Source: a bacterium (GTDB lineage Bacteria; Patescibacteriota; Minisyncoccia; Phycocordibacterales; UBA5272). Taken from it: 48,786 nucleotides of DNA. Positions 1 to 36,689 of this stretch are shown here, piece by piece. The notes under the pieces are model-generated. The model saw nothing but the letters and a program-made list of their open reading frames with translations, did no database searches and was not told where the DNA came from. The stretch covers positions 1-48,786 of the forward strand of contig JAHFMZ010000003.1 in assembly GCA_023267555.1 (NCBI GenBank), written 5' to 3'. Position 1 is the first letter of the stretch. Every line of letters starts with the position of its first letter. Both the position numbers and the translations under genes were made by a program.

Positions 1-93
1 TCTTCAAATCCCAACGAATGACACGCAGGTGTCATTCTTCGATTGCGCAAAATTAAAATACCCAAGGCTTTCGCTTTGGGTATTTTAATTTTG
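1..93 (-). repeat. 3'-type D-I-D unit downstream of tRNA-Asp (truncated by window start)
   Basis: Minus strand after tRNA: near-perfect hairpin H1 (about 44-97), H2 GAATGACAC-CTGC-GTGTCATTC (16-37), inverted T-arm GGGATTTGAA (3-12). The inverted copy reads AATTTTGCGCAaTCGA-[H2]-TGGGATTTGAA. Confidence 0.75.
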
Positions 94-167: not shown

Positions 168-276
168 ATATTTACATTTTAACACTTACAAACGTTTCTC
201 ATTTCTTTTAGATTTAGCACCGCCTTTGGGCGGACTCGCTATATTCTAATTGAGCTGAGCTACGACTGCATATTTA
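168..276 (-). repeat. 5'-type D-I-D unit upstream of tRNA-Asp
   Basis: 24-bp exact direct repeat (151-174 vs 253-276) covering the tRNA 5' end plus leader; 9-nt inverted copy agcaccgcc (216-224) of tRNA ggcggtgct (136-144). Confidence 0.75.
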
Positions 277-413: not shown

Positions 414-517
414 ATATGTTTATTTTACAAACTCAATCTATATCTAACAACTCATAAGCCTATGGAGTAATTGCGCTTATGAATATCCGCGCCAAGCCAA
501 CTGAGCTACGCCGACAT
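414..517 (-). repeat. 5'-type D-I-D unit upstream of tRNA-Met(CAT)
   Basis: 21-bp exact direct repeat (395-415 vs 497-517); 10-nt inverted copy ctcataagcc (451-460) of the anticodon arm ggcttatgag (372-381). Confidence 0.75.
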
Positions 518-661: not shown

Positions 662-765
662 ATATATTTTACAAACTAATATTACCATTATTTACATAAC
701 CTCGTCAGGTTATGAGAGCTATTGATTCCTCTTGTGAGTTACCTCTACTCTATCCCACTATATAC
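662..765 (-). repeat. 5'-type D-I-D unit upstream of tRNA-fMet
   Basis: Near-identical copy of the tRNA 5' half (sense ATAGtGGGATAGAGTAGAGGTAACTCAC); 10-nt inverted copy cataacctcg (695-704) of tRNA cgaggttatg (620-629), then direct aggttatgag (707-716). Confidence 0.75.
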
Positions 766-26942: not shown

Positions 26943-27023
26943 GCCGGAGTGGCGGAATGGTAGACGCGCACGACTCAAAATCGTGTATCGCAAGGTGTGT
27001 GGGTTCAACTCCCACCTCCGGCA
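26943..27023 (+). tRNA. tRNA-Leu(CAA)
   Basis: Class II tRNA GCCGGAG...CTCCGGC+A, anticodon loop CTCAAAA, long variable arm. Confidence 0.95.
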
Positions 27024-27142
27024 CATATAGAAAAAATACCAACTGCTTGGCTTACGGGGAGTTGAATAGGGGTCGCGAAACTAATTATGACGAACGCAGT
27101 GAGGAATTAGTTTTGTGACCGAGTCTCTCTTACTTCGTATCT
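27024..27142 (+). repeat. 3'-type D-I-D unit downstream of tRNA-Leu(CAA)
   Basis: H2 CCAA-CTGC-TTGG (27039-27050), inverted T-arm GGGAGTTGAA (27057-27066), H3 GGTCGCGAAACTAATT/AATTAGTTTTGTGACC (27071-27120), degraded direct copy GAGTCTCTC. Confidence 0.75.
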
Positions 27143-34944: not shown

Positions 34945-35093
34945 TTTGTGCCCAGGGCGGGACTCGGTCACAAAATCAGCTCCTTCGTCGCAGATGATTT
35001 TCCGACCCGTATTCGAGTCCCGATAAAAGCCAAGCAGTTGGCTTTCTCCCTGTCACAAAATGAAAAAGCTGGCAAAAGCCAGTTTTCATTTTG
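34945..35093 (-). repeat. 3'-type D-I-D unit downstream of tRNA-Leu(TAA)
   Basis: 22-bp exact direct repeat of the tRNA 3' end (34945-34966 = 35090-35111, period 145 bp); inverted T-arm at 35012-35022; H2 AAAGCCAA-CTGC-TTGGCTTT (35026-35045); H3 GGGTCGGAAAATC/GATTTTGTGACC. Confidence 0.85.
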
Positions 35094-35176
35094 TGCCCAG
35101 GGCGGGACTCGAACCCGCACGCTGTAACCAGCCAAGGATTTTAAGTCCTTTATGTCTACCATTCCATCACCCGGGC
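35094..35176 (-). tRNA. tRNA-Leu(TAA)
   Basis: Class II tRNA GCCCGGG...CCTGGGC+A, anticodon loop CTTAAAA. Confidence 0.95.
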
Positions 35177-35414: not shown

Positions 35415-35536
35415 GACAAGATGCAGTGGTGAGTGGTCCAAGAGCATAGCGAAATATATGAATAGATCTGCGGTTAAACCGCAGCGTCAAAATATAAATC
35501 GAAGGTAAACCATTATAATTGTTTACAGAATGACAA
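35415..35536 (+). repeat. 5'-type D-I-D unit upstream of tRNA-Cys
   Basis: GACAAGATGCAGTGG copy (35415-35429) of the tRNA-Cys 5' end; 12-nt inverted copy aaaccgcagcgt (35476-35487) of tRNA acgctgcggttt (35559-35570). Confidence 0.75.
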
Positions 35537-35610
35537 GATGCAGTGGCGAAGTGGCCTAACGCTGCGGTTTGCAAAACCGCCATTCGCGGGTTCGACTCCC
35601 GCCTGCATCT
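35537..35610 (+). tRNA. tRNA-Cys(GCA)
   Basis: GATGCAG...CTGCATC+T (U73), anticodon loop TTTGCAA. Confidence 0.93.
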
Positions 35611-36293
35611 CACTTATTAAAAAATTCTTTTGGCATTTCGCTTTTAAAAGTGTTTTCCTCTCTATCAAGATCAAAACTTAAACTCTCGGCGTGAAGCATA
35701 ATATGTGGTGAATCAATTTTACTTCCATATATTTTATCCCCAACTATCGGATGACCAATTGATGACATATGTGCACGCAATTGATGAGTGCGCCCAGTTT
35801 TCGGTAAAAGTTTTACGAGGGTTGTATTTGCCCTACGTTCTATTACTTCTACTTCTGTTATTGCCTCACGTAATTCTCCTCGCAAATTTACTGGATTGGT
35901 TGATTGCTTATAATCTTTTTTATTACGACCAAGAGGTGAATCAATGATAAATTTATTTTGTTCAATAATTCCTTCAACAACCGCTACGTATGTTTTTTTG
36001 ATTATATGATTTCTAAATTGTGATTTTAATTCATCAAAAACTTCTTGGGTTTTCGCAATAACTAATATTCCCGAAGTGTCTCGGTCTAATTTATGAACAA
36101 TACCACCCAATTCTATCGTTCTTTTATCTTGTAGTGTCACACTATTATCTATGTAAAACATTTTAGAATAATTTTCGTGCAAAAAATCCACAAGGGTATA
36201 TTCCGTGGAATAATCAAACGGATGAATTACAATACCTGAAGGTTTGTCTATAACTAGAAAGTTTTCATTTTCAAAAATTATCTTGATATTCAT
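35610..36293 (-). CDS. RluA/RluD family pseudouridine synthase
   Basis: HKLDRDTSGILVIAKT and PKTGRTHQLRAHMSSIGHPIVGDKIYG. Confidence 0.95.
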   Translation of the reverse strand: MNIKIIFENENFLVIDKPSGIVIHPFDYSTEYTLVDFLHENYSKMFYIDNSVTLQDKRTIELGGIVHKLDRDTSGILVIAKTQEVFDELKSQFRNHIIKKTYVAVVEGIIEQNKFIIDSPLGRNKKDYKQSTNPVNLRGELREAITEVEVIERRANTTLVKLLPKTGRTHQLRAHMSSIGHPIVGDKIYGSKIDSPHIMLHAESLSFDLDREENTFKSEMPKEFFNK

Positions 36294-36340: not shown

Positions 36341-36422
36341 GCCCGGGTGGCGAAATTGGTAGACGCACTTGCCTTAGGAGCAAGCGCCGCAAGGCATGAA
36401 GGTTCAAGTCCTTTCCCGGGCA
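36341..36422 (+). tRNA. tRNA-Leu(TAG)
   Basis: Class II tRNA GCCCGGG...CCCGGGC+A, anticodon loop CTTAGGA. Confidence 0.95.
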
Positions 36423-36574
36423 CAACATAAAAAATGAGACCGCGTAAGCTGTCCATTTTTTAGTTGTGCCCGAGAAGCAAGTGATCTGCACCACTTGCGT
36501 AAGGACTTGAATAGGGGTCGCGAAGTCTTCTATTTTTGATTACAAAAATAGACTTTGTGACCAAGTCCTTTCCC
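36423..36574 (+). repeat. 3'-type D-I-D unit downstream of tRNA-Leu(TAG)
   Basis: H1 gggcacaacataaaaaatg/cattttttagttgtgccc overlaps the tRNA 3' end; H2 GCAAGTG-ATCTGCAC-CACTTGC; inverted AAGGACTTGAA; H3 GGTCGCGAAGTC...GACTTTGTGACC; direct copy CAAGTCCTTTCCCG. Confidence 0.85.
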
Positions 36575-36689
36575 GCATTAAAAACATATGCGAGGTGACC
36601 AAACCCTTTCTTATCCTTGCTTTCACCTCATCTTTGTGGTATTACGAAACTACGTATGTAAGAAAAAATGGTCCTGTGCGTCTATAACT

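Follow-up and report, generated by a model that had tools for sequence, protein, structure and literature searches.

A family of short hairpin-built units beside tRNA genes in Patescibacteria, with a conserved core, tRNA-copied arms and possible mobility

The sequence that follows tRNA-Leu(TAG) in this bacterium belongs to a family of non-coding units, about 100-250 bp long, whose plan repeats after many other tRNAs of the same genome. We analyzed the window, a contig of 48,786 bases taken whole (C19), as part of a 513,749-bp genome in 24 contigs (G000), in which ARAGORN finds 40 tRNAs and one tmRNA. The plan of a unit is as follows: the tRNA with its nt 57-73, a trailer hairpin (H1), the antisense of nt 73 to 65, a second hairpin (H2), the antisense of nt 64 to 54, a module termed H3, and a second tRNA copy that begins at nt 57. 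The unit is an inverted triplication (forward, reversed, forward). This description is secure, and the chances are about even that the units are a family of short hairpin-built elements that spread among tRNA and tmRNA genes, mobile in effect, with arms copied from the target. The observations behind this reading are the inverted triplication, fixed starts, shared H2 and H3, target-matched arms, a patchy high-copy distribution, and turnover.

At the tRNA-Leu(TAG) locus, all parts lie on the plus strand. The tRNA gene, host or target of the unit, occupies 36341..36423 (ARAGORN; Rfam RF00005), and the arms derive from its nt 54-73. H1, an imperfect palindrome AACATAAAAAATG...CCATTTTTTAGTT (36424..36462), bridges the tRNA end and the antisense. 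It is followed by the antisense of the acceptor 3' strand, GTTGTGCCCGaGA (36463..36475; GTTGTGCCCG at 36463-36472, then aga), and by H2 with its flanking A and GT (36476..36500), which has a 7-9 bp stem and a CTGC loop and reads GCAAGTG-ATCTGCAC-CACTTGC at 36477-36498, then gt. The exact antisense of T-arm nt 64-54, AAGGACTTGAA (36501..36511), ends in the letters GAA (T54) and gives way to the H3 module, TAGGGGTCGCGAAG...CTTTGTGACC, a segment (36512..36562) that reads TAGGGGTCGCGAA...TTTGTGACC. The direct tRNA copy from C56/57, CAAGTCCTTTCCCG (36562..36575), comprises 14 nt with the same letters as 36405-36418. The original prediction had given this order of parts, and it is exact in the sequence; the hairpin that it described as spliced into the inverted arm at the acceptor/T-arm junction is seen there, where it separates the complement of nt 65 from that of nt 64. 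Its antisense extent was right in part: the complement of nt 54-64 is exact, but the GG of GGTTC is not included, and the arm stops at T54. R1, our covariance model of H2 plus antisense, matches this locus at 36475-36511 with 36.8 bits.

The most intact unit of the window adjoins tRNA-Leu(TAA) (35093..35176, minus strand, ARAGORN) and spans 34945..35092 on the same strand: H1 (35092 to about 35058), anti-acceptor (about 35057-35047), H2 (35046-35025), antisense T-arm (35022-35012), H3 (35011-34966), and a direct copy from nt 57 to the tRNA end (34965-34945). On the plus strand, tRNA-Leu(CAA) (26943..27024, ARAGORN) is followed by a decayed unit (27025..27130) with an H2 remnant (about 27034-27053), an antisense T-arm with 1 mismatch (27056-27066) and H3 (27067-27120). 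The sequence that had been reported as identical at this tRNA, GAATAGGGGTCGCGAA, is indeed so, and is identical also after the Tyr, Thr(TGT) and Glu(TTC) tRNAs; GAATAGGGGTCGCG recurs in addition after those for Leu(GAG), Gly(GCC) and Ser(CGA). The contig end cuts through a unit at tRNA-Asp(GTC) (93-167), of which H1, anti-acceptor, H2 and antisense T-arm are retained (1..92, minus strand; R1 match 3-39).

To what extent do the arms follow the tRNA beside which they stand? In G000, 39 tRNAs possess a recognisable T-loop; for 19 of them, the antisense of the tRNA's own arm (nt 54-64) lies within 200 nt downstream at no more than one mismatch, and for 24 at no more than two, while the arms of other tRNAs match at 0-1 mismatch in 0.18% of 1104 comparisons. 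When arms were permuted among tRNAs (2000 trials), the mean was 1.97 and the maximum 8, against the 19 observed. The 8-nt acceptor antisense is exact in 9 of the 39 tRNAs, versus 0.1%.

H2 and H3 behave differently from the arms: they are common to different tRNAs, and the arms track each tRNA, which bears out the proposal that the element has conserved parts of its own besides target-derived ones. With the tRNA-derived arms masked, the residual H2 and H3 show homology between tRNAs and between species. A 46-nt H3, TACGGGTCGGAAAATCATCTGCGACGAAGGAGCTGATTTTGTGACC, is identical at six tRNAs (three Ser, one Leu, one Arg, one Val) and has one change at Thr(GGT), and its neighbouring segments track each tRNA. 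Apart from one site that looks unrelated, every strict H3 signature in G000 is found 40-92 nt downstream of a same-strand tRNA, and the parts recur genome-wide, contrary to what would have spoken against the prediction, their failure to recur at other tRNA loci. H2 is a hairpin with a 9-bp stem and a CTGC loop; in a survey that set no loop sequence as a requirement, CTGC was found in 77 hairpins preceding the antisense. Because some tRNAs (L058, L076, L078 and L095) have an uninterrupted 21-nt antisense of nt 54-74 without H2, this hairpin is inserted optionally at the acceptor/T-arm boundary. H2 and H3 are conserved parts that belong to the element.

The left border of the downstream copy is fixed and its right border is not. 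The copy begins at nt 57 in 64 scored units, in 47 of which C56 also belongs to the GACC end of H3. Its right end can lie within the arm, coincide with the tRNA 3' end or reach farther into the trailer (19 of 64 stop 0-2 nt past the tRNA 3' end). The antisense arm terminates at T54, and the distance from antisense to copy is 34-225 bp. At L124 the repeat starts at nt 57 and runs to where the H1 stem ends; the new copy alone goes on to anti-acceptor, H2, antisense T-arm and H3, while the old copy leads into different sequence. At L088 a 31-bp repeat ends exactly at H2, and at L102, L130 and L138 the repeat extends into H2. The borders of L124 and L088 look insertion-like, which is indirect evidence. 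Tandem units occur at L174, L112 and L176, and at L174 the neighbouring units have wholly different yet perfect H1 and H2 stems, with loops and junctions that agree. Older copies of units are decayed.

Two further features of the trailers were observed. Mini-hairpins of the GCGAAGC/ACGAAGT/GCATAGC type, the class of very stable DNA triloops, form the H1 loops of L064, L074, L075, L081 and Gly(GCC) of G000 and close many trailer hairpins. At L138 (G080, about 1823-2060), the 3' half of tRNA-Pro and its trailer form tandem repeats of ~79 bp, inside which ARAGORN calls a second tRNA.

Some tRNAs carry a related arrangement on the 5' side: an upstream copy of nt 1-19, the last letter being G19, followed by an insert and, in many cases, by the inverse of the anticodon-arm strand. 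On the minus strand of the window, such units lie at tRNA-Asp (168..269; tRNA-start copy 269-251, then an insert, and the inverse of the anticodon-arm strand at about 224-216), at tRNA-Met (337-414) (415..516; exact nt 1-19 copy at 516-497, inverse GGCTTATGAGT at about 460-450) and at a second tRNA-Met (590-661) (662..759); on the plus strand, tRNA-Cys (35537-35611) has one at 35420..35536, with a degenerate nt 1-19 copy, an insert and an CTGCGGTTAAACCGCAGCG palindrome. Elsewhere, the upstream insert of L094 opens with an H2-like CTGC-loop hairpin, L107 and L161 have an upstream copy of about nt 1-53 and then an H3-type module, and L185, L187 and L192 have an upstream pseudo-tRNA in which a hairpin module of 40-55 nt separates C56 from R57. 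The breaks of the units coincide with structural positions of the tRNA (19/20, 54, 56/57 and 64/65); in tRNA, G19 pairs with C56 at the elbow. These positions hint at an RNA step, and so count against reading the units as an element made by DNA copying.

Other tRNA-associated sequences were also seen. A second, distinct upstream family, UP2 (L175, L180, L181, L184 and L188, in G147/G208), consists of a copy of tRNA nt 1-12, then TCCACCTTCGCTC...GCTTCGGTGGACAAGTAATTGGTCTATAAACCAGATGCTTGCCCACCGTAGCTTTGATA and the intact tRNA, and is common to different tRNAs. A third, DN2, lies directly at tRNA 3' ends (L182, L185, L188, L190, L191, L193 and L194, in G147/G208); it reads TCGAGATTTGTTTCGC...ATGTACACAAAACGACTCAACATCC..GTTGAGTCGTTTTGCACAAGAATCGAAGAACTCCGAGA, with a likeness of mostly 75-90% between tRNAs and species. 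On contig C12 of G000 (about 1180-1412), just before a 5S-like sequence, an odd tRNA-Ala-like sequence, GGGGTATAGCTCAG...CTTACCCCGACCA, has a ~45-nt D-loop insert and adjoins a tRNA of undecided anticodon.

The distribution of the units is wide and patchy. With the Leu(TAA) unit as query, blastn finds relatives in 12 of 15 genomes of the same genus and in ten other genomes of the order. R1 matches 27 of 290 genomes from the phylum, with 1-21 copies each (21 in G000), and up to 15 copies in single Elusimicrobia genomes. One exact H2-plus-antisense pattern occurs at 39 loci in GTDB representatives, nearly all adjoining a tRNA: five are in Elusimicrobia, and the groups include Vogel-, Yonath-, Nomura-, Kaiser-, Campbell-, Niyogi-, Yanofsky-, Moran-, Levy-, Uhr-, Gribaldo- and Saccharibacteria. 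Patescibacteria and Elusimicrobia share the loop and the sequence of H2 as well as the motifs of H3. In four other genomes, at least 38 of 54 R1 matches follow an Rfam tRNA at a distance of no more than 500 nt, on a tRNA list that lacked 15 tRNAs; the rest, where readable, include some after tmRNA (L155), after tRNAs missed by ARAGORN (L157 and L158), and at contig ends. Identical orthologous tRNAs in two species of one genus carry different units (L175/L185 and L176/L186). IMG/VR viruses gave no exact match to one H2 pattern. One site, L170 (G226:C1:363900-365200), has H2 and antisense without an adjoining tRNA and with another palindrome alongside, and is possibly an orphan or relic.

Contig ends inside or near units were seen at window positions 1-92, in G098:C2, and in G208:C18, C21 and C36. 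Because contigs often end in or near a unit, the repeats probably break short-read assemblies. In several public records, N runs lie over trailer palindromes or units (L066/L118, L093, L095, L112 and L133).

To distinguish RNA pairing from DNA copying, we compared the kinds of change in arms and stems. Wobble-keeping and pair-breaking transitions stand at 12:17 among T-arm mismatches and 19:25 among acceptor-arm mismatches, and the antisense differs from the downstream copy by 18 G-U pairs and 71 mismatches, about as expected from undirected change. A functional RNA pairing of the arms was rejected on this absence of a G-U (wobble) preference among mismatches. Among 968 pairs of H2 stems, 263 are double-change cells, while G-U pairs number 13 and other non-Watson-Crick pairs 16, in a model-fitted alignment with a lean towards pairing. 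A look for compensatory changes in H3 had also been suggested, and there double changes occur in 7 of 15 pairs, together with some one-sided changes. During replication, template switching makes or repairs both arms of a perfect stem in one event (PMC8794818). Given the lack of G-U preference and the Watson-Crick H2 stems, local DNA copying, and not RNA pairing, probably makes the arms. The original prediction did not include this behaviour of the arms, nor the genome-wide reach of the family, its presence in other species and a further phylum, or its units beside a tmRNA and on the 5' side of tRNAs.

These data bear on the rivals of the mobile-element reading, of which the two that assign the units an RNA function are weaker than it. 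The units might be cis-acting RNA switches, in which the antisense pairs either with the 3' part of the tRNA, blocking its folding, or with the downstream copy, freeing the tRNA, while H2 and H3 sense a signal and set tRNA output; we regard this as unlikely. The antisense can pair with both partners, H2 and H3 have covarying stems, and of 19 read-through transcripts folded for minimum energy, under a model without tertiary structure or modification, 17 have the tRNA captured by the antisense. However, the arm mismatches have no wobble bias, and downstream copies are often decayed or devoid of the acceptor part (35 of 85 are exact, the rest mostly unlike). The patchy distribution and the differing H3 types at orthologous tRNAs also speak against a switch. 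Finally, H1 is often terminator-like by eye, and the antisense behind such a hairpin may not be transcribed. A terminator scan called one at Leu(TAA) (35082-35069, minus strand) and none at Leu(TAG). The tRNA is probably undisturbed because H1, which resembles a terminator at many loci, would end transcription ahead of the antisense; termination at H1 may thus be how the unit is tolerated.

Alternatively, each unit could encode a small tRNA-like RNA, with an acceptor made of antisense and copy, H2 in place of the D and anticodon arms, and a T-arm lengthened by H3, the working part; the enzymes of tRNA maturation would excise it. The topology fits a minihelix, and modules at nt 56/57 recur in the upstream pseudo-tRNA copies of L185, L187 and L192. 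In addition, H3 retains a G-U pair in 17 of 18 copies, and because this pair is fixed despite double changes elsewhere, RNA or protein contact at H3 is possible; with the one-sided changes, it is an RNA-like feature that counts against the mobile-element reading too. Yet over half of the units have an absent or changed acceptor copy, the antisense forms more Watson-Crick pairs with the tRNA (630 of 680) than with the copy that it would pair with (591 of 680), and the unit has no Rfam match. We consider such an RNA improbable.

It is quite improbable, too, that replication template switching at tRNA-trailer palindromes acts alone, with no mobile element, and that it yields H2 and H3 as repeated by-products or as gene-conversion tracts. 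Such switching accounts for inverted triplications and perfect stems (PMC8794818), and the stems are nearly all Watson-Crick. But the identity of the 46-nt H3 across several tRNAs requires transfer of a specific sequence, and template switching alone fails to explain the conservation of H2 and H3 between phyla. Last, footprints of tyrosine-recombinase integration by phages or islands at tRNA 3' ends, with the cargo later deleted, are very unlikely: direct repeats from the T-loop to the 3' end, the usual mark of tRNA-targeted islands, are present, but this origin leaves antisense arms, H2 and conserved H3 unexplained, the units are 100-250 bp without cargo, no far tRNA-end copy was found in loci up to 8 kb (one tandem unit excepted), and G000 has one recombinase, as do element-free genomes.

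Returning to the mobile element, a sequence of events can be proposed. Copying would run into the trailer or terminator palindrome, fold back on the tRNA gene and copy the acceptor and T-arm strands in reverse; H2 would enter at the acceptor/T boundary (65/64) and the H3 module at the T-loop, and copying would then resume at nt 57, so that the tRNA stays intact and a copy is added. Arms and stems would be kept perfect by template switching at later times. A trans-acting enzyme or a recombining template is a candidate supplier of H2 and H3. With one genome compared per species, neither a true empty site nor active movement was observed.

No mobilising enzyme was found in checks of reverse transcriptase, Y1 transposase and tyrosine recombinase. 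Reverse transcriptase was rejected as driver: RVT_1 is present in 12 of 25 positive and 6 of 19 negative genomes, and absent from G098, G147, G063 and others with many copies. A Y1/RAYT transposase is commoner in positives (11 of 17 vs 5 of 19), yet G000, with its 21 R1 matches, has no Y1_Tnp, and no H2 or H3 lies near the Y1/RAYT genes examined in element-bearing genomes. Tyrosine recombinase, single in G000, is present in all 36 tested genomes, including element-free ones. A longer, autonomous form carrying genes in the space from antisense to copy was also rejected, as none occurs in loci up to 8 kb.

How do the units compare with known systems? They resemble small non-autonomous hairpin repeats (REP, MITE) and template-switch palindromes, and fail the membership tests of each. 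Like REP/BIME sequences (RAYT, TnpA_REP, Y1 family), they are short non-coding hairpins in many copies without cargo, with variable stems and a short conserved motif; unlike these, they are tied to tRNA genes and have arms copied from the target, and the missing Y1 gene of G000 and the lack of H2/H3 beside Y1/RAYT genes do not fit that family. Like MITEs, they are 100-250 bp, non-autonomous, palindromic and dispersed, but they lack constant terminal inverted repeats and a short fixed target duplication: their borders are tRNA-derived, and the direct repeat is variable in length and starts at a fixed tRNA nucleotide. They share with tRNA/tmRNA-targeted integrative elements the direct copy of the tRNA 3' end from the T-loop (64 copies start at nt 57) and the use of tmRNA, but have neither cargo nor a linked integrase, with 34-225 bp from antisense to copy, add a reversed copy and two hairpins, and occur at about half of one genome's tRNAs. 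Group II introns and other retroelements do not fit, with RVT_1 missing from several many-copy genomes. Dictyostelium TRE retrotransposons likewise insert beside tRNA genes without damage, but are kilobase-sized and protein-coding and lack tRNA-derived arms. The units share reverse-complement copies, perfect stems and Watson-Crick double substitutions with few G-U intermediates with quasipalindrome/template-switch mutations (PMC8794818), which hold no foreign conserved insert, whereas H2 and H3 recur across phyla at fixed tRNA positions. No Rfam 15 family reaches its gathering score over H1-H3 (the matches in the window are tRNA only), and at E≤5 only sub-threshold matches cover the units. T-box riboswitches, which are leaders of aaRS or amino-acid genes with a specifier loop and an NCCA-binding antiterminator, gave no match, and the units adjoin tRNA genes. 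The open-access literature searched holds no prior description, and the units look like an undescribed element specialised on tRNA genes.

More tentatively, the cargo-free H2+H3 cassette may be a minimal selfish element of a new class, one that settles at tRNA and tmRNA genes in different phyla, rebuilds its homology arms from each new host tRNA and enters at the elbow (G19/C56), possibly with the folded tRNA as template or guide. The units explain odd sequence around Patescibacteria tRNAs and probably some contig breaks. With arms and core traceable at about 20 loci per genome, they would offer a natural test system for the origin and upkeep of perfect hairpins. An element with a conserved core and arms taken from whichever tRNA it meets would be a new way to settle beside essential genes without killing the host.
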